A stretch of DNA of 64,000 bases. Source: Ramlibacter rhizophilus (lineage in GTDB: Bacteria > Pseudomonadota > Gammaproteobacteria > Burkholderiales > Burkholderiaceae_C). This document shows, in pieces, positions 14,375 to 50,872 of this stretch (position 1 is the stretch's first letter; each line of letters begins with the position of its first letter). The DNA lies in the NCBI RefSeq assembly GCF_004681965.1, contig NZ_SMLL01000002.1:248001-312000 (forward strand), read 5' to 3'. The position numbers were made by a program, and so were the translations under genes. Below the pieces are notes generated by a model. It searched no databases, was not told the origin of the DNA, and was given only the letters and a program-made list of their open reading frames with translations.

Positions 14375-15337
14375 TCAGGCGTAGACATCGGTGGTGAGTT
14401 CGCTCGCGTCCGGGAAGGGCGAGGCGCTCGCGAAGGCAAGGGCCTGCTCGATCCGGACCGCGACCTGCGCCTGCAGGCGGGTCCAGTCCTGCGCGCCCAG
14501 CAGTGCTTCGTCCTGCAGGCGGCGCTGCATGAGCACGATGGGGTCGCGGGCGCGTGCGGCGGCGAGTTCGTCCTTGTCCACGTAGGACTGGTCGTCCGGC
14601 TCGAAGTGGCCGCGCAGGCGATAGGTATTGAGCTCCAGGAAGTAGGGGCCGCCCTCGCGCAGCATGTGCGCCCGTGCCTCCTCGGCGGCGGCCGCGACGG
14701 CCTCCACGTCGTTGCCGTCGATGCTGCGGCTGGGCATGCCGTAGCGCTCGGCCCAGGTGGCGATGCTGTCCGTCAGCATGGTTTCGCGGCGGTGCACGAA
14801 GGCCTGCCACTGGTTGTTCTCGCAGACGTAGAGCACCGGCAGCTTCCACACCGCCGCCAGGTTCAGCGACTCGTGGAAGCGCCCCTCGCAGGCCGCACCG
14901 TCACCGAAGAAGCAGGCCGCGATGCCGTCCTGCGCCAGCATGGACATCGACAGGCCCACGCCCGTGGCCAGGGACAGCTCGCCGCCCACGATGGTGGACG
15001 TGAGCACCACGCCGAGCTCCTTGACGGAGACGTGCAGCGAGCCGCTCTTGCCCCGGCAGTAGCCGGTGCTGCGGCCCATCACCTCGGCCATCATGCGGCC
15101 CGCATCGGCGCCGCGCGCCAGCAGGTGGCCGCCGCTTCGGTGGTTGGTGAGGATGCGGTCTTCCGGCTGGAGCGCCTGCACCACGCCCACGGCGCAGGCC
15201 TCCTGGCCCACCGAGGTGCAGGTGCCGGGCAGGCCCTGCGTGGCGTGCAGCTCGGCGAGCTTTTCTTCATAGGCGCGGATCAGCAGCATGCGCTCGAGCA
15301 TGCGCACGCGGCGCGCTGCGTGGGCGTCGTTTTCCAT
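14375..15337 (-). CDS. 2-oxoacid/acetoin dehydrogenase E1 component, alpha subunit
   Basis: 320 residues of the dehydrogenase E1 (thiamine diphosphate) family. The ThDP-binding motif is clear: GDGAACEGRFHESLNLAAVW followed by VLYVCENN, and the substrate-entry region reads HRSGGHLLARGADAGRMMAE, GRSTGYCRGKSGSLH. The start ATG at 15337 fits the family length. First gene of a two-gene reverse-strand operon with the beta subunit. The 170 bases upstream, up to the TerB-like gene, hold the promoter and an inverted repeat at 15443-15475. Absence of E2/E3 suggests it borrows them in trans or works as a stand-alone ThDP enzyme. Confidence 0.9.
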   Translation of the reverse strand: MENDAHAARRVRMLERMLLIRAYEEKLAELHATQGLPGTCTSVGQEACAVGVVQALQPEDRILTNHRSGGHLLARGADAGRMMAEVMGRSTGYCRGKSGSLHVSVKELGVVLTSTIVGGELSLATGVGLSMSMLAQDGIAACFFGDGAACEGRFHESLNLAAVWKLPVLYVCENNQWQAFVHRRETMLTDSIATWAERYGMPSRSIDGNDVEAVAAAAEEARAHMLREGGPYFLELNTYRLRGHFEPDDQSYVDKDELAAARARDPIVLMQRRLQDEALLGAQDWTRLQAQVAVRIEQALAFASASPFPDASELTTDVYA

Positions 15338-35048: not shown

Positions 35049-35957
35049 TCAAGTCCTGCGGGAGAACGCCTCCATGCGTGCTTTCAGCGAAACCAGGAAC
35101 GGGGCCAACGCCGGCGAGGGTTGTGCGCCCTGCTTGGTGATGCAGAAGAATCCCGTCGAGACGCTGGGCGACACGATGGGACAGACGTCCACGCGGTAGC
35201 GCCGGCATCCCTGCGTGACGAAGGACGGCAGCACGGCCACGCCACGGCCCGCCTCCGCCATCGCGATCAGCGTGTACAGGTTGGAGAAGGTCGGCGGGTC
35301 CGCTGCGGGTGCGCGGCTGCCCAGGTTCTTGTCGACGAGCTGCTGGATGGCGTTGTCGGTGGGAAGCCGGACCATCGGAAGATTCCTCAGCTGCGCCCAG
35401 GTCACGGAGTTGCGCTTGGCCACCCCCGCCAGAGCGCCGGCGGCGCTCACGCAGACCAGCGGCAGTTGCATGAGCAGTTCCTTGGCGAGCGTCGAGCTCG
35501 ACTTGAACAGGATACCCAGGCCCGCATCGACTTCGCCGGACTCGACCATGGCCTGGATCTGCCGCCGGTCCACATCCTTCACGATCACCCGGATATCCGC
35601 ACGCGTGGTGGTCAGATCCTGGCACACGGCCGGCAGCACGTCCGCCGCCACCAGCGGCGTCGCCGCGACGGTGAGGGTCCGTGCGGCGTGGTCGGACAGC
35701 TTGTTCAAACGGTCCAGCACCTCGGCTGCGTCGCGTAGCGTGCGCTCGGCAAAGGGCAGCAACATCCTGCCGGCTTGCGTGAGCCGCACCGCACGCGTCG
35801 TGCGCTCGAACAGGCTGCAGCCGATCTGCACCTCGAACTCCCGGATCATGAGGCTAAGGCCGGCTTGGGTGATGTGCACCTGCTCGGCGGCGCGCGTGAA
35901 GCTGCCCGACTGCGCGATGGCGACAAAACCCCGGAGTTGACGCAGCGTGACGTTCAT
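35049..35957 (-). CDS. LysR-family transcriptional regulator
   Basis: 302 residues. The N-terminal helix-turn-helix is complete (MNVTLRQLRGFVAIAQSGSF, AAEQVHITQAGLSLMIREFE), followed by an effector domain with TLTVAATPLVAADVLP. Resembles CynR/CbbR-like regulators of aromatic catabolism. It is divergent from a flavin monooxygenase gene at 36060; the inverted repeat at 35956-35985 overlaps its own start codon, which suits autoregulation plus activation of the monooxygenase. Confidence 0.92.
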   Translation of the reverse strand: MNVTLRQLRGFVAIAQSGSFTRAAEQVHITQAGLSLMIREFEVQIGCSLFERTTRAVRLTQAGRMLLPFAERTLRDAAEVLDRLNKLSDHAARTLTVAATPLVAADVLPAVCQDLTTTRADIRVIVKDVDRRQIQAMVESGEVDAGLGILFKSSSTLAKELLMQLPLVCVSAAGALAGVAKRNSVTWAQLRNLPMVRLPTDNAIQQLVDKNLGSRAPAADPPTFSNLYTLIAMAEAGRGVAVLPSFVTQGCRRYRVDVCPIVSPSVSTGFFCITKQGAQPSPALAPFLVSLKARMEAFSRRT

Positions 35958-36059: not shown

Positions 36060-37289
36060 ATGCCACACCAGACCCATGTCGCCATCATCGGCGCCGGTAT
36101 CGGCGGCCTCACTGCCGCCCTGGCACTGCTTCGGGCAGGCGTCGACGTCGATGTCTTCGAAAAAGCGTCCAGCTTCGGGGACGTGGGCGCGGGCCTCCAG
36201 CTCAGCCCGAACGGGACCCGTTGCCTTTTCCATCTTGGACTGGAGTCCGAGGTCATGCGACTGGCTGCGCAGCCCTCGGGCAAGGAGATCCGGCTGTGGA
36301 GCAATGGCCGGCGCTGGACCTTGTTCGATCTGGGAAAAGATGCTGTTCATCGCTATGGCTTCCCCTACCTGATGATGCATCGGGCGGATCTGCATGCGGT
36401 GCTGGTCAAGGCCATCGAGGACATCCGGCCGGGCACGATCCACCTGCAGCGCCGGTACCTGGCGCATCACGAGCATGCGCACGGCGTAACGCTGACGCTG
36501 GAAGGTGGCGCGGCGATGTCGTTCGACGCGCTGGTCGCAGCCGACGGCGTCCACTCCGCCTGTCGCAGCTCGCTCTTCGGTGGCGGTGCCGTCCCCTGGT
36601 TCACCGGCTGCATGGCGTGGCGGGGCCTGGTGCCCCTGGATGCCCTGCCCGCCCGATTCGCGGAGCCTGTCGGAACGAACTGGGTCGGTCCCGGCGCGCA
36701 TGTGGTCACCTACCCGGTTCGCGCGGGCCGGCTGATCAACTTCGTCGGTGTGGTCGAGCGTGAAGACTGGCGCACGGAGTCATGGACCACGCGTGGCACG
36801 ACCGAGGAGTGCCTGCAGGACTTCGCCGGCTGGCACGAGGACGTCCAGCAGTTGATCCGCGGCATCGAGCAACCCTACAAATGGGCGCTGCTGGGGCGCG
36901 ACCCGATGGACCGCTGGTCATTGGGCCGCGTGACGCTGCTCGGTGATGCCTGCCATCCGATGCTGCCCTTCCTGGCGCAGGGCGCCATGATGGCCATCGA
37001 AGACGGTGTCGTGCTGGCCCGGTGCCTCGCCGCGTCGCCGCACGAGCCCGCGGCGGCGCTCCTGCGCTATGAGCAACTGCGCTCGGCCCGCACGGCTCGC
37101 GCCGTCCGGGGGTCCGCCGAGAACGCCCGGCGCTTTCACGACCACACGCTGGCCCAGGAGCAAGGCGCGGCCGAATACGTTGACCGCGAATGGACCCCCG
37201 ACAAGGTCCACGCCCGCTACGACTGGCTCTTCTCGTACGACGCGCTGAGTGTTGCGGTCGAGCCCGTGGCGGACGCCGCCCTGGGCTGA
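36060..37289 (+). CDS. FAD-dependent aromatic monooxygenase (salicylate hydroxylase-like)
   Basis: 409 residues from the ATG at 36060. Class A flavin hydroxylase motifs are present: the dinucleotide fold VAIIGAGIGGLTAALALLRA, the DG motif (LVAADGVHSACRSSLFGG), and the FAD ribityl motif LLGDACHPMLPFLAQGAMMA. Closest in style to salicylate 1-hydroxylase, 3-hydroxybenzoate 6-hydroxylase and 6-hydroxynicotinate 3-monooxygenase, all of which hydroxylate aromatic acids using NAD(P)H. Divergent from LysR; followed after 244 bases by the TRAP/Rieske unit. The exact substrate is not deducible. Confidence 0.88.
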   Translation: MPHQTHVAIIGAGIGGLTAALALLRAGVDVDVFEKASSFGDVGAGLQLSPNGTRCLFHLGLESEVMRLAAQPSGKEIRLWSNGRRWTLFDLGKDAVHRYGFPYLMMHRADLHAVLVKAIEDIRPGTIHLQRRYLAHHEHAHGVTLTLEGGAAMSFDALVAADGVHSACRSSLFGGGAVPWFTGCMAWRGLVPLDALPARFAEPVGTNWVGPGAHVVTYPVRAGRLINFVGVVEREDWRTESWTTRGTTEECLQDFAGWHEDVQQLIRGIEQPYKWALLGRDPMDRWSLGRVTLLGDACHPMLPFLAQGAMMAIEDGVVLARCLAASPHEPAAALLRYEQLRSARTARAVRGSAENARRFHDHTLAQEQGAAEYVDREWTPDKVHARYDWLFSYDALSVAVEPVADAALG

Positions 37290-37328: not shown

Positions 37329-37356
37329 GTTGATTGAGCAACGTTGCAACATCAAC
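37329..37356. promoter_or_regulatory. Palindromic site upstream of the TRAP/Rieske operon (shares a 14-base motif with 40842-40855)
   Basis: A 28-base imperfect palindrome: left half GTTGATTGAGCAAC, right half GTTGCAACATCAAC (37343-37356), pairing at 11 of 14 positions around the perfect core GCAACGTTGC. The right half is, base for base, the reverse complement of GTTGATGTTGCAAC found between the divergent VOC and epoxide hydrolase genes. It lies about 180 bases before the TRAP receptor start. Likely operator for a dimeric regulator, most simply the MarR protein at 42099. Confidence 0.6.
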
Positions 37357-37533
37357 ATGATGGCGACTCGAACCGGAGGCTTTCCATCGAACCCGGCTCC
37401 AACTCGACAGCAGGCGATCGGGATTCCGTGCATGCATGCGCGACGAGCGCAACGGTTCACCGAGCTGCATGAGCCCAGCAGGACGCATCGATCCGCGGCT
37501 GTACCCGATCCAACTCAACTGAAGGAGACAAGC

Positions 37534-38580
37534 ATGATCCAGAGACGCAGCATCCTCAAGTCCGGCGCAGCCCTGGCGCTGGGGGCACCGGTCCTCGGCA
37601 GCCTGGCGCAGCAGCCCGTGACGCTGAAGTTCCATACCTTCATGGCGCCGACGTCCAACGTCTGGACGCTGATGCTCAAGCCCTGGATGGAGAAGGTGGA
37701 GAAGGACTCCGGCGGACGCATCAAATTCGAGGCCTACCCCGCCATGCAGCTCGGCGGCACGCCGGTCCAGCTCTACGACCAGGCGCGCGACGGCGTGGTG
37801 GACGTGGTCTGGACGCTGCCGGGGTACACCGCGGGCCGGTTCGTTCGTTCCGAAGCGTTCGAGCTTCCGTTCATGATGAACGAGGCCGAGGCGACCTCGC
37901 GTGCGTTCTGGGAGTACATCCAGCAGAACGCGCCCGACGAGTTCAAGGACACCAAGGTGCTGGCGCTGCACGTTCACGGCCCGGGCGTGTTCCATTCGAC
38001 CCGCCAGATCAAGTCGCCGAAGGACTTGAACGGAATGAAGGTTCGTGCACCCACCCGCCAGGTTGCCAAGCTGCTCGGTGCGTACGGCGCGATTCCCGTG
38101 GGGATGCCGCTTCCGGCCGTTTCGGACGCACTCGCCAAGGGGACCATCGACGGACTGGCCACGCCCTGGGATGTCGTGCCCTCGGTGAAGGTGCACGAGC
38201 TCACCAAGTTCTCGACCGAGTTCCCGCGCGACGCACCCGCCATGTACACCGGCACCTTCGTCATGGCGATGAACCCGGCCAAGTACAACGCGCTGCCGCC
38301 CGATCTGAAGAAGGTGATCGACGACAACTCGGGCATGCTCACCTCGGGCCTGTTCGGCAAGATCACGCAGGACAGCGACTCGATCGGCAAGAAGGCCGCC
38401 GAGAGCCGCGGCAACACGATCTACACGCTGTCCGATGCAGAGGCGAAGGAGTTCATGAAGCTCTCCTCGAAGATCGACCAGGAGTGGGTCGCCGACATGA
38501 ACAGCCGTGGCCACGACGGCAAGCGCTTGCTCGAATCCGCCAAGTCACTGATTGCCAAGCACGGCAAGAAGGCGTCCTGA
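37534..38580 (+). CDS. TRAP transporter periplasmic solute receptor (DctP/TAXI-like)
   Basis: 348 residues from the ATG at 37534 with GAAGGAGA upstream. Signal sequence MIQRRSILKSGAALALGAPV may be exported folded (RR) though the motif is weak. The receptor has TLKFHTFMAPTSNVWTLMLK, GRIKFEAYPAMQLGGTPVQL and the ligand-arginine region FHSTRQIKSPKDLNGMKVRA of DctP receptors. No DctQ/DctM membrane genes follow; instead a Rieske oxygenase gene begins 29 bases later. Probably binds the organic acid fed into the cluster. Confidence 0.9.
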   Translation: MIQRRSILKSGAALALGAPVLGSLAQQPVTLKFHTFMAPTSNVWTLMLKPWMEKVEKDSGGRIKFEAYPAMQLGGTPVQLYDQARDGVVDVVWTLPGYTAGRFVRSEAFELPFMMNEAEATSRAFWEYIQQNAPDEFKDTKVLALHVHGPGVFHSTRQIKSPKDLNGMKVRAPTRQVAKLLGAYGAIPVGMPLPAVSDALAKGTIDGLATPWDVVPSVKVHELTKFSTEFPRDAPAMYTGTFVMAMNPAKYNALPPDLKKVIDDNSGMLTSGLFGKITQDSDSIGKKAAESRGNTIYTLSDAEAKEFMKLSSKIDQEWVADMNSRGHDGKRLLESAKSLIAKHGKKAS

Positions 38581-38609
38581 ACCATCGCAACGCATAGAGG
38601 AGACCCATC

Positions 38610-39692
38610 ATGTTCATCATGAATGCCTGGTACATCGCGGCCTGGGCCAGCGAGATCGGCGAGAAGCCGTTCGCGCGGACGATCTGCAACGAGCCGCTCG
38701 TTTTCTTCCGTGACAAGGTCTCCGGCAAGATTGCCGCCCTCGAGGACAAGTGCTGCCACCGTGCAGCGCCCTTGTCGCTCGGCGTGGTGGTCGAGGCCGG
38801 CCTGCAATGCGGCTACCACGGCGTGGTGCACGACTGCTCCGGGCGCTGCGTGCACATCCCGGGCCAGGACAAGATTCCGGCGCGGGCCAAGGTTCGCGCC
38901 TACCCGGCCGTGGAGAAGAACGAATTTATTTGGGTGTGGATGGGAAATCCGGAGCTGGCCGACGAGTCGAAGATCATCGACTACCCGTTCAATGACGACC
39001 ACGAGAAGTGGCCGCACCACCAGGGCTTCTATCACATCAAGTCCAACTACGTGCTGATGGTGGACAACCTCATGGACCTGACCCACCTGGGGTACGTGCA
39101 CGGCTCGACCATCGGCGGAAATCCCCAGACGCACGTGGAAGCCTTGATGGACGTCCACAAGACCGAAACCAGCCTCAGCTACGTGCGCTGGATGCTCAAC
39201 TCCATCCCGCCGCCCACCTATGTCGCGGCCGTGGGATTCAAGGGCCGCGTGGACCGGTGGCAGGAGTTCGAATTCGCCCCCCCGAGCAATGTCCTGCAAT
39301 GGAGCGGCGCCGTCGACGCCGGGACCGGTGCGCGTGAAAACGGCAACCGGGAAGGCGGGTTCTCGCTTCGCATCTTCCACGGCCTCACGCCGGAGACGGA
39401 GAATTCCTGCTTCTACTTCTATGCCCCGGCGAACGGCTATCGCCAGGACGACCCGACCGCGACCGACGACCTGATGAAGCACATCTCGACGGCGTTCATG
39501 GAAGACTTGCTGGTCTGCGAAGGGCAGCAGAAGCGGCTGGAGCGATTCGGCGAGTCGGATCTCGTGGACATCGCCTCCGACGCGAGCCGCATTCACCTGC
39601 GCCGCATCATCAACCGGATGGAACAGGAAGACGCCCGGCTTCGGCAACCGGCCGCGCCCCGCTCGCGCGTGCCGGAGGTCGTAGCGCAGTAG
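38610..39692 (+). CDS. Rieske non-heme iron aromatic oxygenase (VanA-like)
   Basis: 360 residues from the ATG at 38610 with GAGGAG upstream. The Rieske centre is Cys48-x-His50 and Cys67-x2-His70 (DKCCHRAAPLSLG, LQCGYHG). The mononuclear iron site is Asp156, His159 and His164 (NLMDLTHLGYVH). Length and lack of a beta subunit put it with vanillate O-demethylase/phenoxybenzoate-type oxygenases, which demethylate or hydroxylate aromatic acids. The usual ferredoxin-reductase partner (VanB) is not in the window. Ends at a strong hairpin at 39698-39728. Confidence 0.93.
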   Translation: MFIMNAWYIAAWASEIGEKPFARTICNEPLVFFRDKVSGKIAALEDKCCHRAAPLSLGVVVEAGLQCGYHGVVHDCSGRCVHIPGQDKIPARAKVRAYPAVEKNEFIWVWMGNPELADESKIIDYPFNDDHEKWPHHQGFYHIKSNYVLMVDNLMDLTHLGYVHGSTIGGNPQTHVEALMDVHKTETSLSYVRWMLNSIPPPTYVAAVGFKGRVDRWQEFEFAPPSNVLQWSGAVDAGTGARENGNREGGFSLRIFHGLTPETENSCFYFYAPANGYRQDDPTATDDLMKHISTAFMEDLLVCEGQQKRLERFGESDLVDIASDASRIHLRRIINRMEQEDARLRQPAAPRSRVPEVVAQ

Positions 39693-39697
39693 AAAGG

Positions 39698-39728
39698 AAA
39701 AGGGGTCGGCGACGAGCCGACCCCTTTT
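39698..39728. terminator. Bidirectional rho-independent terminator
   Basis: AAAAGGGGTCGGC, loop GACGA, GCCGACCCCTTTT forms a perfect 13-base stem with A- and T-runs on both ends. It sits 6 bases after the Rieske stop and 18 before the stop of the convergent GST gene, so it can end both transcripts. Confidence 0.9.
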
Positions 39729-39745
39729 CTTCCACGCCCAGCCTC

Positions 39746-40357
39746 TCAGCCGACCCGTTGAACAGCCGGACGTTGCGCAACCGCCTTCAACCAGCGATCG
39801 ATGGACGGCGTATCGCCAAGTTTCCCGTCCGAAAGCTGCTTGACGCGGCCGAGCCAACCCGCGGTGGAACAGAACGATGGGATGTCGGCGATGGAGTACT
39901 CGCCGCAGATGAATTCGCGCTGTGAAAGGCGCCGCTCCAGCACGTTGAACAGTCGCACGGCCTCGGTGCCGAAGCGCTCGACGGTGCCGGGAATGCGCTG
40001 CGCGAGGTCTGCGTAATGATGCAATTGCGGCAGGGTCGCCCCCAGGGCGCCGGTCCCCCAGAACAGCCATGCCAGGGTGTCGGCACGTGCCGCACCCGAC
40101 GGCGGCAGCAGCCGGCCCGACTTCTCGGCGAGATAGATCAGGATCGCACCGGTCTCGAACACCGCGACTTTTTCTTGCGGGCCCTCGTCGACGATGGCGG
40201 GAATCTTGTTGTTCGGCGAAATCTCGAGGTACTTGGGATCGAACTGCTCGCCCTTGGTGATGTCGATGGTTTGCGTCCGGTACGCCTCGCCGGACTCCTC
40301 GAGCATGATCTGCGCCTTGCGGCTGTTCGGACCCGGGTAGGTGAAGAAGGTGATCAT
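39746..40357 (-). CDS. Glutathione S-transferase
   Basis: 203 residues: FFTYPGPNSRKAQIMLEESG carries the serine-type glutathione site of beta/nu-like (YfcG/YghU) GSTs, followed by NNKIPAIVDEGP with the cis-proline and FETGAILIYLAEKSGRLLPP. The C-domain ends with EYSIADIPSFCSTAGWLGRV. It is 9 bases after the VOC gene and convergent with the Rieske gene. In this cluster it could open epoxides or remove thioether groups (inference). Confidence 0.92.
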   Translation of the reverse strand: MITFFTYPGPNSRKAQIMLEESGEAYRTQTIDITKGEQFDPKYLEISPNNKIPAIVDEGPQEKVAVFETGAILIYLAEKSGRLLPPSGAARADTLAWLFWGTGALGATLPQLHHYADLAQRIPGTVERFGTEAVRLFNVLERRLSQREFICGEYSIADIPSFCSTAGWLGRVKQLSDGKLGDTPSIDRWLKAVAQRPAVQRVG

Positions 40358-40366
40358 CCCGGTCCT

Positions 40367-40804
40367 TCAGGCAGCGACCGTCTTGGAGTCGATCAGCTCG
40401 ATCTTGTAGCCATCAGGATCCTGGACAAAGGCCAGGTGCAGCGTGTCGTTCTTCATCGGGCCCGGCGCACGGGTGATGTTCGCGCCCTTGCGCTTCAACT
40501 CTTCGCACGTGGCGTAGATGTCGTCCACGGCAATGGCCAGGTGCCCGTAGGCGTTGCCGATGTCGTAGGCCTTGTCCTGGTCCCAGTTATGGGTGAGCTC
40601 CACGACGGCGTGGTTGATTTCCGGCCCGTAGCCCACGAAGGCGAGCGAGAAGCGCCCTTCGGGGTAGTCCTTGCGCCGAAGCACCTTCATGCCGAGCAGG
40701 CGGGTGTAGAAATCGAGCGAAGCATCCAGGTCGCGAACGCGGATCATGGTGTGCATCACACGGTGGTTCGCCTGGTGCGGCGCTGGGGAATCGGTCGTGC
40801 CCAT
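40367..40804 (-). CDS. Glyoxalase I-like VOC protein
   Basis: 145 residues from the ATG at 40804 with GGAGAC upstream. It has the glyoxalase I layout: HTMIRVRDLDASLDFYTRLL with GMKVLRR, NHAVVELTHNWDQDKAYDIG, YGHLAIAVDDIYATCEELKR and DPDGYKIELIDSK. The four metal ligands (His, Glu, His, Glu) are recognisable in HTMI, VVELTH, GHLAI and KIELID. Most like lactoylglutathione lyase, which turns the glutathione hemithioacetal of methylglyoxal into S-lactoylglutathione. Its 4-residue-long N-tail is extended by about 12 polar residues. Co-transcribed with the GST; glutathione is the shared cofactor. Confidence 0.9.
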   Translation of the reverse strand: MGTTDSPAPHQANHRVMHTMIRVRDLDASLDFYTRLLGMKVLRRKDYPEGRFSLAFVGYGPEINHAVVELTHNWDQDKAYDIGNAYGHLAIAVDDIYATCEELKRKGANITRAPGPMKNDTLHLAFVQDPDGYKIELIDSKTVAA

Positions 40805-40830
40805 CGGGTCTCCTTCCACGGTTTTGGGTT

Positions 40831-40862
40831 GCAGAATCAACGTTGATGTTGCAACATTCTGC
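40831..40862. promoter_or_regulatory. Nested palindromes between the divergent VOC and epoxide hydrolase genes
   Basis: Outer arms GCAGAAT (40831-40837) and ATTCTGC (40856-40862) enclose two overlapping perfect palindromes, ATCAACGTTGAT (40836-40847) and TGTTGCAACA (40847-40856). The segment GTTGATGTTGCAAC (40842-40855) is identical, in opposite orientation, to 37343-37356. It is about 27 bases from the VOC start and 44 bases from the epoxide hydrolase start, a position suited to repressing both directions. Confidence 0.65.
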
Positions 40863-40905
40863 GCGACGCCAACCAAGTTTTCAAATCCTTTTTCGGGAGA
40901 CTCCG

Positions 40906-42039
40906 ATGAGCCAGGAGACACGATTCACGCTCCACGCCGAACAGGCGCTACTCGATCGCATCGCGCGGCAGGTTGCCGAGTACGAGTGGCCGAAGACACC
41001 GGCTGGCGCCGGCTGGGAAATGGGTGTCGATCCGGCCACGCTGAAGTACGTCGCCGAGCGCTGGACCCACGGGTTCGACTGGCGCGTTCAGGAGGCCCGC
41101 CTCAACGAACTGTCCCATTTCAAGGCCCGCGTGGGCGCCGTGGACCTGCACTACGTCCGCATCGACGCGACGGGCCCGCGCACCGGTGTTCCGGTCGTGT
41201 TGATGCACGGATGGCCGGGCTGCTTCCTCGAGTACATCGAGGTGGGGCGCGAGCTGGCACGCCGCGGATTCGACGCGGTGCTGGTCTCCCTGCCGGGAGT
41301 CGGCTTCTCCAGCGCGCCGGACCAGGTCCTGGGCCCGCGTGGCGTCGCCGCACTGGTGCATGAACTCATGACCCGCGTCCTCGGCCACGAGCGCTATGTT
41401 GCGCATGGGGCCGACTGGGGCTCGATCATTGCCGGATGGCTGGGCTTCGATCATGGGCAGCACTGCATCGGCACCCACATGACCATGGCCAGCCCGAAGT
41501 TCGTGGCCGGTGCCGCATCCACGGAGCAGGAGCAGCAGTGGCTGGCCGGTTTCCGCGAGCGCTTCGAGGATGACGGCGCCTACTTCCGGCTGCAGACCTC
41601 CCGGCCGCTGACCGCCGGCTTCGCGCTGTCGAACAACCCGGTCGGCCTGCTCGCGTGGATGCTGGAGAAGTTCGCGGCCTGGGGCGACCCGGCCGAGGGC
41701 CAGAAGTCCGCCGTCTACCAGACGCCCGAGCGCGCCGACCGCGTGCTGCGCAACGTGATGCTGTACCTGGTGACGAACAGCGTGGCCACGTCCATGTGGA
41801 TCTATCGCGGCATCACGACCGAAGGGCCGCCAGGCTACCCCGGCGGCAAGCGCGTCGAGACGCCGACCGCTTTCGCGGCAACGCGTGACCCGATCTTCGT
41901 TCCGCCGCCCCGCAGCCTGGTCGACAAGGTCTACCGGGTGGTGCGCTGGACCGAGTTCTCCGCGGGCGGTCATTTCCCCGGCTACGACGTCCCGGATGCG
42001 CTGGCCGCAGACATTGCCGAGTTCTCGGCGAACCTGTGA
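40906..42039 (+). CDS. Epoxide hydrolase (EphA/EHN-type alpha/beta hydrolase)
   Basis: 377 residues from the ATG at 40906 with GGGAGA upstream. It has the N-terminal EHN lid (LHAEQALLDRIARQVAEYEW, ERWTHGFDWRVQEARLNEL), the oxyanion HGWPG at 101-105, the nucleophile Asp170 in HGADWGS and the catalytic His356 in SAGGHFPG. The fold hydrolyses epoxides to vicinal diols. Followed 59 bases later by MarR. With Rieske oxygenase, two GSTs and a glyoxalase in the same cluster, an epoxide intermediate or an epoxidised aromatic/terpenoid substrate is plausible (inference). Confidence 0.92.
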   Translation: MSQETRFTLHAEQALLDRIARQVAEYEWPKTPAGAGWEMGVDPATLKYVAERWTHGFDWRVQEARLNELSHFKARVGAVDLHYVRIDATGPRTGVPVVLMHGWPGCFLEYIEVGRELARRGFDAVLVSLPGVGFSSAPDQVLGPRGVAALVHELMTRVLGHERYVAHGADWGSIIAGWLGFDHGQHCIGTHMTMASPKFVAGAASTEQEQQWLAGFRERFEDDGAYFRLQTSRPLTAGFALSNNPVGLLAWMLEKFAAWGDPAEGQKSAVYQTPERADRVLRNVMLYLVTNSVATSMWIYRGITTEGPPGYPGGKRVETPTAFAATRDPIFVPPPRSLVDKVYRVVRWTEFSAGGHFPGYDVPDALAADIAEFSANL

Positions 42040-42098
42040 TGCCGGCCCCAAGGCCGACCCGTTAAAGTCGGCGCTGGGATACGCAGACGAATTCACCG

Positions 42099-42674
42099 AT
42101 GGCAACAGCCGCAACCCGGGTCACCGCCGCCGCGCCGAGCAAGGCCCGGCGCGAGGTTCTCGACCTCTCGCATTACGCGACCTACTTCTTCACGGTACTG
42201 GCCAACAAGCTGTCGAGCGGGGCCTCGCGCCTGTACCTCAGGCGATTCGGAATCGGCATCATCGAATGGCGTGTCATGGCCATGCTGGCGATCGAGCCTC
42301 GGATTGCACCGGCGCGGATTTCGCAGGTCATCGGGCTGGACAAGGCCTCGATCAGCCGCGAGTCACGCAAGCTCGAGGAAAAGGGCTACCTGATCGTGTC
42401 CAGCGATGAAACGTCCTCGCGTCGCAAGACCCTGGAGCTGTCCCCCAAAGGCTACGAGCTGCACGACCAGGTGATCCAGGTTGCCCTGGAGCGGGAGCGA
42501 CGACTTCTGTCCGACCTGACCAGCGAGGAAGCCGACCTCTTCCTCGATCTGCTGGCCCGCACGACGGCCAAGATTCCGTACGTGAACGAGTTCGACCCCG
42601 GCTCCACCGCCGCGACGCGCACGCCGAACAAGCGGCGCGGCGGTGCACCGACCCGCTTGACCAAAGTCCGTTGA
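42099..42674 (+). CDS. MarR-family transcriptional regulator
   Basis: 191 residues. Helices of the dimer interface (SHYATYFFTVLANKLSSGAS), the winged helix (RISQVIGLDKASISRESRKL, EKGYLIVSSDETSSRRKTLE) and the C-terminal helix are all recognisable. It is basic at both ends. MarR dimers bind palindromes with TTGCAA-like cores, and the cluster contains two sites with GTTGCAAC (37343-37356 and 40842-40855), one before its own operon. Autorepression and induction by an aromatic acid or CoA ester are the expected behaviour. Confidence 0.92.
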   Translation: MATAATRVTAAAPSKARREVLDLSHYATYFFTVLANKLSSGASRLYLRRFGIGIIEWRVMAMLAIEPRIAPARISQVIGLDKASISRESRKLEEKGYLIVSSDETSSRRKTLELSPKGYELHDQVIQVALERERRLLSDLTSEEADLFLDLLARTTAKIPYVNEFDPGSTAATRTPNKRRGGAPTRLTKVR

Positions 42675-42708: not shown

Positions 42709-44148
42709 GTGAACACCGCCACGCTGCGCGCAGACTGGCTGCTGGCCTCGGCGCGCGCTGGCTCGATCGAGCCAGGGGTGGAGGTCCGCTACGACGCGTC
42801 CGGCGTCCGCGCCATCGAGCGGGATGTGCAAGGGGGCGGCGCCATGCTGCTCATGCCGCCGCTGGCCAACGCGCACGACCACGGCCGCGGCATCCGCTCG
42901 CTGGCCTACGGCGCGCTCGACGCGCCCGTGGAGGCGTGGGTTCCCGCGACCTACACCCTGCCCCCGGTGGACCCTTATCTGGTTGCTGCAGCTGCGTTCT
43001 GCCGCATGGCGCGCAGCGGCATCGGCCATGTGGTGCACTGTCATCTGTCGCGCGACCCGCGCACGCTGGTGCGCGAGGCCGAGGCGGTGTGCCGCGCCGC
43101 CCGCGACGTGGGCATCCGGCTGGCGTTCGTCGTCCCCATGCGCGACCGGCACCGGCTTGGTTACGGGCCCGACGAATCCATCCTGCAGTGGCTGGACGCT
43201 TCGGACGCCGACGCCATCCGCACGCGCTGGTTGCGGCCGATCGCCTCCGTCGAGGAGCAGATGGCCGTGGTCGAAGAGATCGCCGAGGCGTACGAGTCGC
43301 CCCGCTTCCAGGTGCAGTACGGGCCCGTCGGCGCCGAATGGTGCTCTGATCCGCTGCTGGAGCGGATTGCCACTGCATCGGCCGCCAGCGGCCGCCGCGT
43401 GCACACGCACCTGCTGGAGTCACGCTACCAGCGCGCTTGGGCGGATCGCACGTACCCGCAAGGCATCGTGCGCCACCTCGACCAGATCGGACTGCTGTCG
43501 CCGCGGCTCACGGTGGCGCATGGCACCTGGCTGCACCCGGACGAATGCGAGCTCCTCGCCAGCCGCGGCGTGCTCGTCTCGATCAACACGAGTTCCAACC
43601 TGCGGCTGCGCTCCGGCATCGCGCCCCTGCGGCACATCCGGGAAGCGGGCCTGAAGTTCGCCGTCGGCCTGGACGCGCTCGCGCTGGACGACGACGACGA
43701 CCTGCTGCGCGAGATGCGGCTGCTGCGGCTTCTGCATGCCGGCACCGGCTTCGACGCCGGCGTGCCGAGCGACGCCGTGCTGGAGGCAGCCTGCTGCCAC
43801 GGCGCGGCCGCAGCGGGCATCGACGGGGCGGGCGACATTGCGATCGGCGGACCGGCCGACCTGCTGCTGCTCGATCTGAAGCGCGAAGTCGCCGACTTGT
43901 GCGAACCCCTGTCGGACGTAGCGACGCTGTTCCATGCGCGCGCAACCGCGGCGAACGTCCGAACGCTCGTGGTGGCTGGCCAGACCGTCGTGCAGGACGG
44001 CGCGGTGCTTGGCGTGGACGAAGCGGCGGTCGTGTCGGAATTGCACGAGCAGCTGCGAGCCCATTCAGGCGCGATGGCGCAGTTCCTGCCGCTGCTGCGC
44101 CGCTACCAGGAGGCGCTGGCAAGGTTCTACGAACGAAGGGCCGACTGA
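42709..44148 (+). CDS. Amidohydrolase of the cytosine deaminase/TRZ-ATZ type
   Basis: 479 residues from the GTG at 42709 with GAGGAG upstream. The metal motif at the first strand reads LANAHDHGRGIR (HxH, with the second His replaced in spacing as HDH), later HLLESRYQRAW and VAHGTWLHPDECE provide the other ligands, and VGLDALALDDDDDLL the aspartate. Typical substrates are cyclic amides, deaminated heterocycles or chlorotriazines. Follows MarR by 34 bases and is probably in the same transcript, but the link to oxygenase and epoxide chemistry is not obvious. Confidence 0.88.
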   Translation: MNTATLRADWLLASARAGSIEPGVEVRYDASGVRAIERDVQGGGAMLLMPPLANAHDHGRGIRSLAYGALDAPVEAWVPATYTLPPVDPYLVAAAAFCRMARSGIGHVVHCHLSRDPRTLVREAEAVCRAARDVGIRLAFVVPMRDRHRLGYGPDESILQWLDASDADAIRTRWLRPIASVEEQMAVVEEIAEAYESPRFQVQYGPVGAEWCSDPLLERIATASAASGRRVHTHLLESRYQRAWADRTYPQGIVRHLDQIGLLSPRLTVAHGTWLHPDECELLASRGVLVSINTSSNLRLRSGIAPLRHIREAGLKFAVGLDALALDDDDDLLREMRLLRLLHAGTGFDAGVPSDAVLEAACCHGAAAAGIDGAGDIAIGGPADLLLLDLKREVADLCEPLSDVATLFHARATAANVRTLVVAGQTVVQDGAVLGVDEAAVVSELHEQLRAHSGAMAQFLPLLRRYQEALARFYERRAD

Positions 44149-45962: not shown

Positions 45963-47606
45963 TCACGCCGCACCGCGCAGCCGATCCACCAGCGCCAGCG
46001 GATCGCCTGGCAATGCATTGCCACGCCAGGCGACGTGCTGGTCCGGCCGGCACAGCACGAAGTCGTGCTCATAGGCAGGCGGCAAGGTCTCGGGCCGCAG
46101 GTCGAGCAGCACCATGGGGACCTTGCGGCTTCGCGCCGCGTCCAGCAGCGCAGACGGGTCGAGCGAACCGCGACACTGCAGCAGCGTGTAGTCGTCCCCG
46201 AAGGCGTCGTAGAGCGATCGGCCATCGGACAGCCACAGGTGCGGCGCCCGACAGCCCGGCACGGTGGATGGAATGAAGCCGCCCATGGAATACGCAGGCG
46301 CCTGCTGCCCGTCATACGCGATCACGGGCGAGGCGTCGTAGAAGTAACCGAAGTTCAGGCCGGCGCAGCAGAACTGCTGCACGTTCAGCTCGTAGGCTTT
46401 CCTGCCGATCTCCTCTCGCACGGCATCGCCCTGCGGGCCCGGCGCTTCGATGTCGGGCGGCACGGCGGCACGCATGCTGGTGAGCGCCAGTGCGTGGTTC
46501 ATCGCGAAGTGCGACACCTGCGCCGTGATGGGCATGCGCTCACGCTCGTATGCAGCCAGCACGCCTTCGTCCGCCCATCCCCGCAGCCGGGCCGCCAGGT
46601 GCCACGAGAGATTCAAGCCGTCCGCGATACCGGCGTTCATTCCATAGCCCGCGTACGGCACCCACAGATGCGCAGCGTCACCGGCGATGAAGGCACGACG
46701 GTCACGAAAGCGGTCGCTGACGAGGCGGCGTGCGACCCAGTCCTCCTTGCTGACCACTTCGTACTGGAAATCGGGGCCCACGCCCAGGATGTCGCGGATG
46801 CAGCGGTCGCGGTCCACCCCCGCGCCCTCCTCTTCCTGCGGCTGGAGGTGGTTGTGCACCAGCCAGGTCTCACGGCCATCGATGGCATACACCGTGCCGG
46901 ACCTGCGCGGGTTGATGGCGTACACCCCCCATGCCGTGCGGTGGGGAATCATGTCCAGCAGCTGCGGCGCGCGGATGCAGGTGGACTGGACGTGGTGGAT
47001 GACGGCCGTCCCCTGCAGCTGTGCGCCCATCGATTTGCGCACGAGCGATCTTCCGCCTTCGCAGCCGATGATGTAGCGGGTGCGGTACGTCCTCGACGTC
47101 CCCGCGTCGTCCGTGGCCGTGGTGGTCACGCCTTCCTCGTCCTGTGCGTAGCCGGTCACTTCGGTCCGATTCAGCAGCTGGACGTGGGGCAAGGTGGCCA
47201 CGTGCTGCTGCAGCAGCGGCTCCAGGTAGGTCTGGTTGATGCGGTGCGGGGGTTCCGGGGTGGGCCAGTTGCCGTCCGGGCCGCTCGTGTCGGTGAAGCG
47301 CTCACCGCGCGAGGGGATGAACACGCGCGACAGCTCGGTGCCGGTCACCGTGGTGCGGAACGCCACGCTGTGTTCGTAGTCCACCGGCAGCCCCGCGCCA
47401 CGCAGCAGGCCAGCCACGCCCAGTCGGCGGAACGACTCCATCGAACGCGCCGACACGTGGTTGCACTTGACGCTGGGCAGTTCGAGGAAGGCCCGGCGCT
47501 CAACGACGATGCAGCCGATCCCGCGGCGATTCAGGTCCATCGCGATCGTCATCCCCACGGGACCTGCGCCGACGATCAGCACGTCGGCATCGAAGGTCTC
47601 GTTCAT
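45963..47606 (-). CDS. FAD-dependent monooxygenase, MhpA-like
   Basis: 547 residues. ADVLIVGAGPVGMTIAMDLN is the FAD fold, GCEGGRSLVRKSMG the DG-like motif, and RRAFIAGDAAHLWVPYAGYG the second FAD motif of class A hydroxylases such as 3-(3-hydroxyphenyl)propionate hydroxylase. The C-terminal thioredoxin-like domain (about residues 440-547) is present. Its start overlaps the stop of the Bug receptor gene by one base (TGATG), so uptake and hydroxylation of one aromatic acid are probably coupled. No ring-cleavage enzyme adjoins. Confidence 0.92.
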   Translation of the reverse strand: MNETFDADVLIVGAGPVGMTIAMDLNRRGIGCIVVERRAFLELPSVKCNHVSARSMESFRRLGVAGLLRGAGLPVDYEHSVAFRTTVTGTELSRVFIPSRGERFTDTSGPDGNWPTPEPPHRINQTYLEPLLQQHVATLPHVQLLNRTEVTGYAQDEEGVTTTATDDAGTSRTYRTRYIIGCEGGRSLVRKSMGAQLQGTAVIHHVQSTCIRAPQLLDMIPHRTAWGVYAINPRRSGTVYAIDGRETWLVHNHLQPQEEEGAGVDRDRCIRDILGVGPDFQYEVVSKEDWVARRLVSDRFRDRRAFIAGDAAHLWVPYAGYGMNAGIADGLNLSWHLAARLRGWADEGVLAAYERERMPITAQVSHFAMNHALALTSMRAAVPPDIEAPGPQGDAVREEIGRKAYELNVQQFCCAGLNFGYFYDASPVIAYDGQQAPAYSMGGFIPSTVPGCRAPHLWLSDGRSLYDAFGDDYTLLQCRGSLDPSALLDAARSRKVPMVLLDLRPETLPPAYEHDFVLCRPDQHVAWRGNALPGDPLALVDRLRGAA

Positions 47607-48598
47607 CAGTCGGCCTTGAAGCCCGTCGTGCGAACAGCGTCGCCCCAGACCTTCGCGTCACTGGCGATGATGCGCGCGAACTCCTCGCGCGTGGTCCCCG
47701 TCGGCGTGAAGCCGGCCGCTTCGATCTTCGCCTGCATCTCGGGCGACTTGATGGCCTTCTGCACATCCGCGCTCAGCTTCCTGATGACGCCGTCGGGCGT
47801 TTGCGCGGGGGCAAAGATGCCGAACCAGGAGGTGATCTCCAGGTCCGCTTGTCCCTGCTCCTTCATGGTGGGAACGTCCGGCAAGGCGGGGTTTCGCGCA
47901 GGGCCGGTGGCCGCAAGCGCGGCCAGCTTTCCGGCCTTCACCTGGGGGGCGGACACGCCGACGCTGGCGAACATGCCATGGACATCGCCGCTGATCAGCC
48001 CCGTGAGCGCGTCACCGGTGTTCTTGTAGTGCACCACCTCCGGCTTGATCTTGACGGCGTCACCGAAGATGTAGGCAGCGAAATGGCCTGGCGTGCCCGC
48101 GCCGAAGGTCCCCATGAAGATGGACTTGGGCTGCTTGCTGCTCCAGTCCACGAACTGCGCCAGGTTGCGCGCGGGCACTTTCGCGGGGTTGGTGAGCAGG
48201 ACGAAATCGTTGCTCACCACCTGGCTGACCGGAACGAAGTCCTTGGCGGGGTCGTAGGGCAACTTCCGGTAGCTCACGGGTGCGATCACCATGTTGCCGG
48301 TCAGGCCCAGCAGCAGGGTGTAGCCGTCCGCCGGCGCTCGCGCCGCCTCGCTCGCGGCGATGACGCCGCCCGCGCCGGGCTTGTTGTCCACGATGACGTT
48401 GGCATTCCCCCAGGTCTCGGAGAGCTTCTGCGCCAACAGGCGTGCCAGGATGTCCGGGCCCGTGCCGGCGGGGAAGCCGACGAGGAGTCGCACCGGCTTG
48501 TCCGGGTAGGACGAAGCGGGCTGGGCACAGACGCCGGCTGCGCCGGTGAGTGCTGCGAGAAGTGCCAAGGCATGACGGCGGGAAAGTGCTGTTGCCAC
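47606..48598 (-). CDS. Bug/TctC-family periplasmic solute receptor
   Basis: 330 residues from the GTG at 48598, positioned by GGAGGA 8 bases upstream. Signal MATALSRRHALALLAALTGA is followed by KPVRLLVGFPAGTGPDILAR, ARAPADGYTLLLGL and a ligand region around VVHYKNTGDALTGLISGD. First gene of a two-gene unit with the MhpA-like monooxygenase, and divergent from a LuxR regulator at 48749. The receptor is likely to bind the aromatic acid that the monooxygenase uses. Confidence 0.92.
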   Translation of the reverse strand: MATALSRRHALALLAALTGAAGVCAQPASSYPDKPVRLLVGFPAGTGPDILARLLAQKLSETWGNANVIVDNKPGAGGVIAASEAARAPADGYTLLLGLTGNMVIAPVSYRKLPYDPAKDFVPVSQVVSNDFVLLTNPAKVPARNLAQFVDWSSKQPKSIFMGTFGAGTPGHFAAYIFGDAVKIKPEVVHYKNTGDALTGLISGDVHGMFASVGVSAPQVKAGKLAALAATGPARNPALPDVPTMKEQGQADLEITSWFGIFAPAQTPDGVIRKLSADVQKAIKSPEMQAKIEAAGFTPTGTTREEFARIIASDAKVWGDAVRTTGFKAD

Positions 48599-48748
48599 AA
48601 GAAAGTCCTCCAGGGAAAACCCGAGCTGGCGCGTCGGTACATCCGTTGTCCCGAGCGTAAACTGCCCCGGCCCGACCGCTGTCCACCATGAAGACGACAG
48701 ACAAACCCGCGAGCATCCTTTCGCTGCCCACCTAGCAAGGCTCGGCAA

Positions 48749-49561
48749 ATGCGCCACTGGCTCCCCATCGAGACCCCGCCTTCCACGCCGACGGCTGTCC
48801 TTCCGGGCCTCATCGCATCGCTGGCGCTGCCGGGCTATGCGTCGACGCTGCTCGCGCAGGTGCGCGAAGTCCTTCCCGCCTGCTCGCTGTCGGTCTACCG
48901 CACAGGCCCAGGATCACGGCCTGAGCGCTACCTGTCGGCCAGTCACGCGCGTCCCGACACCACACTGCGTTGCTGGAACGGCTACCTGTCCGGTCCCTGG
49001 CGGGGCGATGTCACGCTTCTGTCCGCGGTCGAAGCGGCTCATCCGCAGACCCCGGTGCTGTGCCACATCACGGCCCAGGAGGTCCCGGGCGAACACCGCG
49101 TGAAGGTCTACGAGTCCCAGGGCCGCGCGGAGCGCGTATCCGTCGTCGTCCGCGACAGCGACTGCTCCGTCTTCGCGATCAACTTCTACCGGCACGCGGG
49201 CCAGCCGCCGTTCCGGGATGCCGAGCTGGCCGGGTTCGGTCAGATCGCGCCGTCCGTGCTGGCGCTGACGCGCAAGCACCTGGCCCTCACCGGCATCCCA
49301 CTGCACGGCAACCCACTGGCCCACCGCAGCCACGGCCTGGCGACACGCAGTCGCCTCGCGAGCCTCCATCCGCGCCTCACCGAGCGCGAACTCGACGTGT
49401 GCGAGAGGCTCCTGGCGGGAATGACGATGGACGGCATCGCCAACGACCTGGACTTGACCTTGGGGACGGTCAAGACCTACCGCAACCGCGCGTTCCACCG
49501 CATGGGCCTGCACTTTCGCAGCGAGCTGTTCGCTCTGATTCGTAGAGCCGAAGGGCATTAG
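48749..49561 (+). CDS. LuxR-type transcriptional regulator
   Basis: 270 residues. The N-terminal 190 form an undefined sensor (GAF/autoinducer-like fold not confirmed). The C-terminal LuxR helix-turn-helix is clear: LTERELDVCERLLAGMTMDG and IANDLDLTLGTVKTYRNRAF, then HFRSELFALIRRA. There is no receiver domain. It is divergent from the Bug/monooxygenase unit (150-base gap) and probably its activator. The ATG at 48749 lies within a weak context, so the start could be slightly downstream. Confidence 0.88.
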   Translation: MRHWLPIETPPSTPTAVLPGLIASLALPGYASTLLAQVREVLPACSLSVYRTGPGSRPERYLSASHARPDTTLRCWNGYLSGPWRGDVTLLSAVEAAHPQTPVLCHITAQEVPGEHRVKVYESQGRAERVSVVVRDSDCSVFAINFYRHAGQPPFRDAELAGFGQIAPSVLALTRKHLALTGIPLHGNPLAHRSHGLATRSRLASLHPRLTERELDVCERLLAGMTMDGIANDLDLTLGTVKTYRNRAFHRMGLHFRSELFALIRRAEGH

Positions 49562-50071: not shown

Positions 50072-50872
50072 ATGGTCGAGTGCATCGAAGCCTGCAGGAA
50101 CCGTCTGCTCGCGGCATTGCCGACAGACGTCCTTCGCCGTTGGCTCCCGCAACTCGAGCCCGTCCAATTGAGGCTCGGTGATTCGGTGTACGAGGCTGGC
50201 CAGCCTCAACGTCATGTTTATTTTCCAACGACAGCGCTGGTATCGCTGCTACACGTCCTCCACAACGGCGCCTCGGCGGAGATCGCAATTGTCGGCAATG
50301 ACGGGGCCGTCGGCATCTCGATCTTCCTGGGGGGAGGCAGCACGTCAACCCGCGGGGTGGTCCAGGGTAGCGGGCATGCCATACGCTGCCCTTCGTCGAT
50401 GCTCCTGGCCGAGTTCGAACGTGACGGCGCGGTCATGCACCTGCTGCTGCGGTACACGCAAGCTTTGATCAGTCAGATGACGCAGACCGCGGCCTGCAAT
50501 CGACACCACCGCATCGAGCAGCAACTGTGTCGCTGGTTGCTCCTGAGTCTCGACCGAATTGCCACAACCGATCTGAACATGACCCAGGAGCTCATCTCGA
50601 ACATGCTGGGTGTACGACGCGAAGGAGTGACGCAGGCCGCAGCGAAGCTGCAATGCAAGGGACTGATCCAGTACTCGCGCGGACACATCACAGTCCTGCA
50701 CCGCAAGGAGCTGGAGTTGCATGCCTGCGAGTGCTACGAGGTGGTCAAGAAGGAATACGACCGGCTGCTTGGCCGCGTTTGTGATCAACAGCTCGAGTTC
50801 GCTGGGGGTGTGTGCGAACGAGCCAGAGTGGCCAGGACTTGTGTGCGGTACCGAACGGAACGTGACACCTGA
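50072..50872 (+). CDS. Crp/Fnr-family transcriptional regulator
   Basis: 266 residues from the ATG at 50072. The cyclic-nucleotide-binding-like barrel (GDSVYEAGQPQRHVYFPTTA, GASAEIAIVGNDGAVGISIF) belongs to a Burkholderiales-rich group that lacks the Fnr cysteines and the cAMP-binding RxS residues. The winged helix is present (MTQELISNMLGVRREGVTQA) in the divergent Crp form. The tail after about residue 235 is basic. An inducer is not evident, and no FNR-type iron-sulphur sensor is visible. Confidence 0.9.
   Translation: MVECIEACRNRLLAALPTDVLRRWLPQLEPVQLRLGDSVYEAGQPQRHVYFPTTALVSLLHVLHNGASAEIAIVGNDGAVGISIFLGGGSTSTRGVVQGSGHAIRCPSSMLLAEFERDGAVMHLLLRYTQALISQMTQTAACNRHHRIEQQLCRWLLLSLDRIATTDLNMTQELISNMLGVRREGVTQAAAKLQCKGLIQYSRGHITVLHRKELELHACECYEVVKKEYDRLLGRVCDQQLEFAGGVCERARVARTCVRYRTERDT

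Follow-up and report, generated by a model that had tools for sequence, protein, structure and literature searches.

A MarR-family regulator and paired palindromic sites as a candidate switch for aryl-O-demethylation genes in Ramlibacter rhizophilus and other proteobacteria

In a stretch of 64,000 nucleotides from Ramlibacter rhizophilus (contig NZ_SMLL01000002.1, positions 248,001 to 312,000; contig 5 of the 4.59-Mb genome), here called the window, we analysed a gene for a MarR-family regulator (42099-42674, + strand), two palindromic sites as its proposed operators, and the surrounding genes. The regulator gene follows that of an epoxide hydrolase (40906-42039, +; EHN and alpha/beta hydrolase domains; nearest solved chain 5f4z, an epoxide hydrolase, 172 bits), which is the first gene of the operon (40906-42674). 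A divergent operon (39746-40804, −) codes for a vicinal oxygen chelate (VOC) protein of the lactoylglutathione lyase (glyoxalase I) type (40367-40804, −; TIGR00068, 166.7 bits at a cut-off of 120) and a YfcG-like glutathione transferase (GST; 39746-40357, −; nearest solved chain 5hfk, YfcG, 149 bits). A third operon (37534-39692) contains the genes for DctP, the receptor of a tripartite ATP-independent periplasmic (TRAP) transporter (37534-38580, +; Pfam DctP), and for a Rieske oxygenase which we propose as an aryl-O-demethylase (38610-39692, +; Pfam Rieske 66.1 bits and VanA_C 151.2 bits). Upstream of it are the genes for a flavin adenine dinucleotide (FAD) monooxygenase (36060-37289, +; FAD_binding_3) and, divergent from the latter, a LysR-type regulator (35049-35957, −). 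The extents of the three operons agree with those given in an earlier note on this DNA, made from the sequence alone.

The MarR assignment is based on three Pfam models scoring above their cut-offs, MarR_2 (30.2 bits, cut-off 27), MarR (25.4, 24.6) and HTH_34 (30.2, 27), and on a single-chain AlphaFold model (pLDDT 86.4), whose best match in the PDB is 3nrv with a TM(target) of 0.91; most of the 50 listed titles of structure matches name MarR-type regulators. The nearest solved relative of the Rieske protein is the dicamba O-demethylase DdmC (3gb4, 185.6 bits, covering residues 2-344 of 360). For the FAD monooxygenase, the nearest solved chains are tropone 2-monooxygenase and vanillate 1-hydroxylase, and its score against the NCBIfam model of 3-hydroxybenzoate 6-monooxygenase (288 bits) is below the cut-off of 459.

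Two sites of 28 bp, each made of two abutting 14-bp palindromic units of the form GTTG-N6-CAAC and neither assigned to a strand, lie before the starts of these operons. Operator 1 (37329-37356; GTTGATTGAGCAAC followed by GTTGCAACATCAAC) is located between the end of the FAD monooxygenase gene (37289) and the TRAP receptor gene (37534), 177 bases 5' of the ATG of the latter. Operator 2 (40828-40855; GTTGCAGAATCAAC followed by GTTGATGTTGCAAC) separates the divergent VOC and epoxide hydrolase genes, at distances of 23 and 50 bases to the respective ATGs, and thus lies 5' of the operon containing the regulator gene itself, as judged from sequence evidence only. The earlier note had recognised GTTGCAACATCAAC (37343-37356, +) and, at 40842-40855, the exact reverse complement of this sequence. 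We found these to be the sole exact copies in the window, and the note had correctly placed each inside a larger palindrome, now defined as the 28-bp pairs. Its suggestion of a TTGCAA-like core did not hold, since the conserved core is GTTG-N6-CAAC.

The perfect 28-bp pattern occurs at two places in the genome of 4,590,519 bp, both of them in this cluster, and the next best two matches show 2 and 3 mismatches. Because the own genome was also the sole match among the 399 genomes of the order searched (own included), the exact 28-mer was discarded as a probe for relatives as too strict. A single 14-bp unit was found at 18 places in the genome versus 15 for a reversed control pattern, and single degenerate units are common in AT-richer genomes. 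What stands out is therefore the abutting pairing and not the single unit. The background frequency of single units would fit a chance or mobile-element repeat without any regulatory role, but the abutting pairs, the enrichment of one specific spacer length and a borne-out prediction of units at operon starts (see below) make such an origin extremely improbable.

Allowing up to three mismatches, GTTGCAACATCAAC gave 8 matches in the window versus 2.95 expected, a number as high as in 2 of 100 shuffles. A weight matrix trained on relatives only ranked the four window units 1 to 4 in the window (scores of 20.8, 20.8, 16.1 and 15.0), followed by 10.2 and then by values below 1, although this ranking is partly a result of construction, every training site having exact arms. 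In 20 shuffled windows, the highest-scoring single match had a mean of 10.6 and reached 21.7 in one case; what stands out is thus the four units as a set, together with their pairing, and not any single score. The fifth-best match (50216-50229, GTTTATTTTCCAAC, score 10.2) is close to this average of shuffled maxima and probably due to chance. Calculated from 54 chosen sites, four of them from the window, the symmetrical base preference of the unit is GTTGAYATRTCAAC; 7 of the 57 units in the 24 related loci introduced below were omitted from these counts because they were considered intragenic or remote from the cluster, and the weight matrix omitted one more.

A sigma-70-like promoter of the VOC-GST genes (40856-40884, −; -35 box TTGAAA, 17 bp spacing, -10 box CAGAAT, 9/12) directly adjoins operator 2, which begins at the next base. 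The scan at this operator found this one promoter, compared to a mean of 0.1 in shuffled sequences. Because operator 2 starts one base past the -10 box, the start of transcription would be covered whenever a repressor occupied the site.

The cluster is kept in three loci of Hydrogenophaga. In two of these (L005 and L006), the gene order is the same as in the window (LysR, FAD monooxygenase, DctP, Rieske, GST, VOC, epoxide hydrolase, MarR), with a VanB-like reductase gene (50-51% identity to that of the third locus, L007) and one further gene, coding in L005 for a dienelactone-hydrolase-family protein, inserted between the Rieske and GST genes; L007 has the same gene set in a rearranged order. 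Both double sites are exact in L005 (3574-3601 and 8720-8747), and L006 contains one exact site (8722-8749) and one with a single mismatch in its second unit (3580-3607). In L007, units with a spacing of 34-41 bp are found at the corresponding promoters, and there is one 5' of the MarR gene. A promoter abutting the operator as in the window is also present in L005 and L006 (TTGGCG-17-CATAAT, 9/12), which makes three genomes in all, and was not seen in L007. The loss of the motif from relatives keeping the cluster, which the earlier note had named as the outcome that would speak against a shared operator, was thus not observed in any of the three loci.

These three loci also contain homologues of the window LysR (47-60% identity), and in L007 a unit identical to one in the window is located between the LysR and FAD monooxygenase genes (15120-15133), the only case of a unit 5' of the latter gene. 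Both observations would suit a scheme in which the cluster is activated by the LysR protein encoded at 35049 as the owner of the sites. The question of the owner was addressed with 24 loci chosen solely for the similarity of their MarR proteins to that of the window (40-71% identity); a 25th match (L029) with 24% identity over 98 residues and no unit was dropped. Counts were compared for all 3,328 gapped palindromes (4-base arms, spacers of 0-12) in the region from 450 bp before to 250 bp after the MarR match. GTTG-N6-CAAC ranked first of them all, being present in 19 of the 24 loci versus 0.76 expected from distant parts of the same loci. The palindromes at ranks 2 and 3, TTGA-N4-TCAA (13 loci) and AGTT-N8-AACT (12 loci), represent the same motif in another register. 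Changing the spacer to 4, 5, 7 or 8 in a similar region left 0, 1, 0 and 1 of the 24 loci, and the everted form CAAC-N6-GTTG was present in 1 of 24. At least one unit occurs in every one of the 24 loci, with five of them (L005, L006, L024, L026 and L027) having it farther away from the MarR gene.

In the other 21 of the 24 loci, the unit stays with MarR in the absence of any close homologue of the window LysR (matches of 25% and 28% in L013 and L016 only), which renders ownership by LysR very unlikely; this comparison concerns homologues of the window LysR, and other LysR-type genes occur in some of the 24 loci. The site accompanies the MarR lineage across Alpha-, Beta- and Gammaproteobacteria. 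The MarR protein encoded at 42099, to which the earlier note had already attributed the sites, is therefore very probably the owner of both operators.

A candidate gene for an aryl-O-demethylase was found within about 6 kb of the MarR gene in all 24 loci, and these candidates belong to four unrelated types. The most frequent is a VanA-like Rieske oxygenase (16 loci), accompanied by a VanB-like reductase in 16/16 cases (40-53% identity to that of L007) and by a DctP homologue in 9. Two loci (L011 and L017) contain CYP199A-type cytochromes P450, scoring 598 and 502 bits to CYP199A4 compared to 184 and 200 bits for the best P450 chain of another family; L011 also carries genes for an intradiol-dioxygenase-type protein and a CoA-transferase. 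Components of corrinoid methyltransferases (a B12-binding protein and/or a URO-D-type methyltransferase) are present in three loci (L010, L013 and L019), and LigM/DesA-like folate-dependent proteins in another three. Among the latter, the protein of L022 scores 380.8 bits to LigM and 503.6 bits to the syringate O-demethylase model, whose cut-off of 800 it does not reach; those of L026 and L027 were assigned from a GCV_T domain and from clustering, respectively. In most loci, units are located between the MarR and demethylase genes or directly 5' of the latter.

The epoxide hydrolase, GST and glyoxalase genes next to operator 2 code for glutathione or epoxide enzymes, which might instead point to MarR acting as a sensor of stress or electrophiles guarding these three genes, with the demethylase as a passenger; MarR might also bind the sites as an activator. 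Homologues of the three genes are confined to 3/24 loci, as opposed to the demethylase candidates in 24/24, and operator 2 overlaps the expected transcription start in the manner of a repressor site. We regard these alternatives together as unlikely, though less so than a role of LysR. Two loci with a more distant MarR protein (L114 and L115; 32% identity) contain paired units separated by 39 and 45 bases, with DctP genes nearby (52-54% identity to that of the window); the reference demethylases were looked for in their vicinity and none was found.

An independent search started from CYP199A, covering 297 genomes of the order of L017 and yielding 38 matches in 30 genomes, of which 30 loci were examined (including that of the query itself, L063). 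The unit was present in 12 of the 13 loci with a nearby MarR of the family versus none of the 17 loci without it (Fisher test, 1.5e-7), ten of the 13 forming one clade. In the CYP199A loci, the unit thus tracks the presence of MarR, which again argues against LysR as the owner. Ten Bradyrhizobium-type loci (L064-L073) contain a conserved GTTGCYTARGCAAC-like unit with AT-rich flanks 3' of the MarR gene, where it precedes no gene to which a name could be assigned.

We further analysed 28 MarR loci from the window's own taxonomic family, 24 of which represent one sister branch and some of which share a cluster or genome. Homologues of VanA/VanB or CYP199A were close by in 22 of the 28. Within about 3.4 kb of DNA each, these loci were initially read as mostly siteless, with the unit near MarR in 4/28 and at rank 75 of the 3,328 palindromes, a reading overturned by wider DNA. 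As most of these MarR genes are located towards the end of long operons that begin outside the loci, the siteless result is no evidence against the site. For the same reason, a de novo palindrome search in the 28 loci gave nothing clear; the stretches directly 5' of CYP199A were mostly without the unit (exact in 1/11). Paired units about 5 kb upstream of MarR in L097 and L101 led us to fetch further upstream DNA for 11 loci. The predicted unit at the operon start was found in 9 of these 11 regions, 47-81 bases 5' of an ATG that has a GGAG resembling a ribosome-binding site. Six of the nine have a second unit at a distance of 16 bases, which is exact in four cases and shows one mismatch in two; no unit was found in the upstream regions of L131 and L132. 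Overall, the upstream DNA of the sister branch contains 14 units in 107.3 kb versus 1.15 expected. At the sole operon start scanned for its genes (L099), the first ones code for a periplasmic binding protein and a branched-chain-type permease.

Among plasmids, 30 records matched the MarR protein and 6 were examined, 3 of which contain the unit (one of Pseudomonas koreensis and two of Bradyrhizobium), while none was found in those of Roseomonas mucosa, Marinomonas algicola and Neorhizobium galegae. The Pseudomonas koreensis plasmid carries one unit between the MarR gene and fdhA and another some 1.2 kb 5' of a Rieske gene. On this plasmid (p1, L138), MarR is divergent from fdhA, coding for a formaldehyde dehydrogenase, which would fit the release of formaldehyde by O-demethylation.

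A tree of 68 MarR proteins separates a lineage of 44 rows from the sister branch of 24 rows with an SH-aLRT support of 99. The larger lineage includes the window, all rows labelled with an O-demethylase and 7 others, and the window protein groups with those of the three Hydrogenophaga loci (98). The partner-enzyme labels need at least 5 changes on this tree, in which the sister-branch rows are unlabelled. The tree derives from a quick, short search that left 26 of the 65 inner branches open. Some rows are poorly placed, and the positions of L040 and L058, which are badly filled and have very long branches, are meaningless. Close relatives of the MarR protein are rare and patchy in scans of the family and class (22/399 genomes at 1e-20 and 4/369 at 1e-30, own genome included in both). 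The five same-genus genomes among those listed in the former scan gave no MarR match at 1e-20, which hints at a horizontal gain.

Considering all these data, we propose, with a probability of about 80% as judged from sequence comparisons, that one MarR repressor acts on both 28-bp sites, is released by a methoxylated aromatic acid and controls O-demethylation genes. A MarR dimer would bind both double palindromes and hold down the TRAP receptor-Rieske, VOC-GST and its own epoxide hydrolase-MarR operons. A methoxylated or similar aromatic acid entering the cell would bind to MarR and free the DNA, and the Rieske enzyme would then O-demethylate the acid to a phenol, on which the FAD monooxygenase may act by hydroxylation. 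Repression and release by a ligand are inferred from known MarR repressors such as DesR, as described in the available part of the respective report (PMC6888825). The wider regulator family would do the same job with different demethylases. The gene set of the window would agree well with an ortho-methoxybenzoate that feeds the FAD monooxygenase, and the role of GST, glyoxalase and epoxide hydrolase may lie in the handling of reactive products arising from the particular substrate.

Several observations weigh against this proposal. The epoxide hydrolase, GST and glyoxalase are ill-suited to a plain O-demethylation pathway. Operator 1 is 177 bases away from the start of dctP, and a consensus promoter scan found no promoter there, looser rules yielding only a weak 8/12 match. 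No VanB-type reductase gene was found beside the Rieske gene in the window, unlike in L005-L007, where one follows or adjoins it. In the ten Bradyrhizobium-type loci, the unit is located downstream of MarR and not 5' of CYP199A, and an exact site is absent from the DNA seen of the family members L074, L118, L119, L121, L131 and L132 and of the plasmid loci L137, L139 and L142. Moreover, the rows compared are not independent, as they include three Hydrogenophaga, ten CYP199A loci in one clade and, among the 28 further loci, several per genome.

With regard to the reductase, the own genome codes for a VanB homologue beside another VanA-like gene on another contig. In this second VanA/VanB-like pair (L133; contig 12, 21951-22898), the VanB-like protein shows 49% identity to that of L007 and the VanA-like protein 37% identity to the window Rieske protein, and the pair may supply the reductase missing from the cluster. 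There is no permease or other transporter gene between the window dctP (37534-38580) and its neighbours; in L005, a second, distant DctP homologue (28%) is encoded 3' of MarR together with what reads like a permease gene.

The earlier note had predicted a single regulon that also included an amidohydrolase (42709-44148, +; Amidohydro_1), whose gene starts 34 bases 3' of the MarR gene. The control of two promoters by MarR is supported by our analysis, but the amidohydrolase has no homologue in the 25 fetched loci L005-L029 (BLAST, E 1e-8, frames of at least 100 amino acids) and is probably a local passenger of the MarR operon at best. Likewise, the gene set had not been recognised as any described pathway, which is true only in part, as aryl-O-demethylation emerges as the recurring theme of the regulator family. 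Elsewhere in the window, the stretch 45963-48757 codes for another FAD monooxygenase of the aromatic-ring type (NF004780, 667.9 bits at a cut-off of 445) next to a same-strand TctC-like receptor gene, with no exact unit nearby.

The window operators resemble known sites of other MarR-type regulators. The marO site of Escherichia coli and the MexR sites of Pseudomonas are TTG-N6-CAA or similar palindromes, often present as two sites, but belong to different regulators and pathways. The closest solved relative of the window MarR is 3nrv, a MarR/EmrR regulator of Acinetobacter sp. ADP1 (140.7 bits). DdmC converts a 2-methoxybenzoate to a salicylate; its similarity to the window Rieske protein over nearly the full length does not imply a common substrate.

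Functionally, the nearest counterpart is DesR of Sphingobium sp. SYK-6, which, in the available part of its description, is a MarR-type repressor of ligM, desB and desR whose DNA binding is inhibited by vanillate and syringate (PMC6888825). It shares with the proposed window system the repression of aryl-O-demethylation, dispersed promoters, autoregulation and methoxylated acids as effectors, whereas its operators are 15-bp repeats such as GTTTGTGTCACATAC and differ from the GTTG-N6-CAAC pattern, so that the window sites are not of the DesR type. IadR/MarR_73 of Variovorax (PDB 7kfo), which according to the part of the source available is a dimeric MarR protein sensing aromatic acids and repressing a catabolic locus for auxin degradation (PMC9613470), shows detectable similarity in sequence and fold, but reaches only about 61 bits against the family profile and serves a different pathway. 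As to the CYP199A O-demethylases (CYP199A4, PbdA), the window-type MarR family and its site adjoin their genes in L011 and L017. The words 'regulator' and 'MarR' do not occur in the accessible part of the paper on PbdA (PMC11530827), and titles and abstract starts in the literature yielded neither a link of CYP199A to a MarR regulator, although three of the papers contain both words, nor any other CYP199A regulator. No description of the regulator-operator pair was found there by operator strings or by the combination of O-demethylation and MarR, and the operator strings together with a MarR protein gave no match in the titles and abstracts searched. The repression of aromatic catabolism by MarR proteins is already known; the pair of operator and owner and its use over four types of demethylases seem to be new.

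We moderately favour the broader view that this MarR lineage and its operator represent a portable switch for O-demethylation in three proteobacterial classes, in which the enzyme is exchanged among four unrelated chemistries (Rieske, CYP199A, corrinoid methyltransferase and the folate-dependent LigM/DesA type) while regulator and operator stay. Within the family, the operator takes the form of one or more units, with pairs at distances of 14 or 16 bases in two branches and wider spacings elsewhere, and the window would be a version of this switch whose units abut directly and whose gene set is extended by glutathione and epoxide enzymes. The finding offers a sequence-defined and testable operator with its proposed owner for genes of aryl-O-demethylation, a bottleneck in the use of lignin-derived aromatics. 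If it is true, the short pattern would be usable to find new demethylases and ligands, and the family would show how a regulator remains fixed while unrelated enzymes for one reaction are swapped beneath it.

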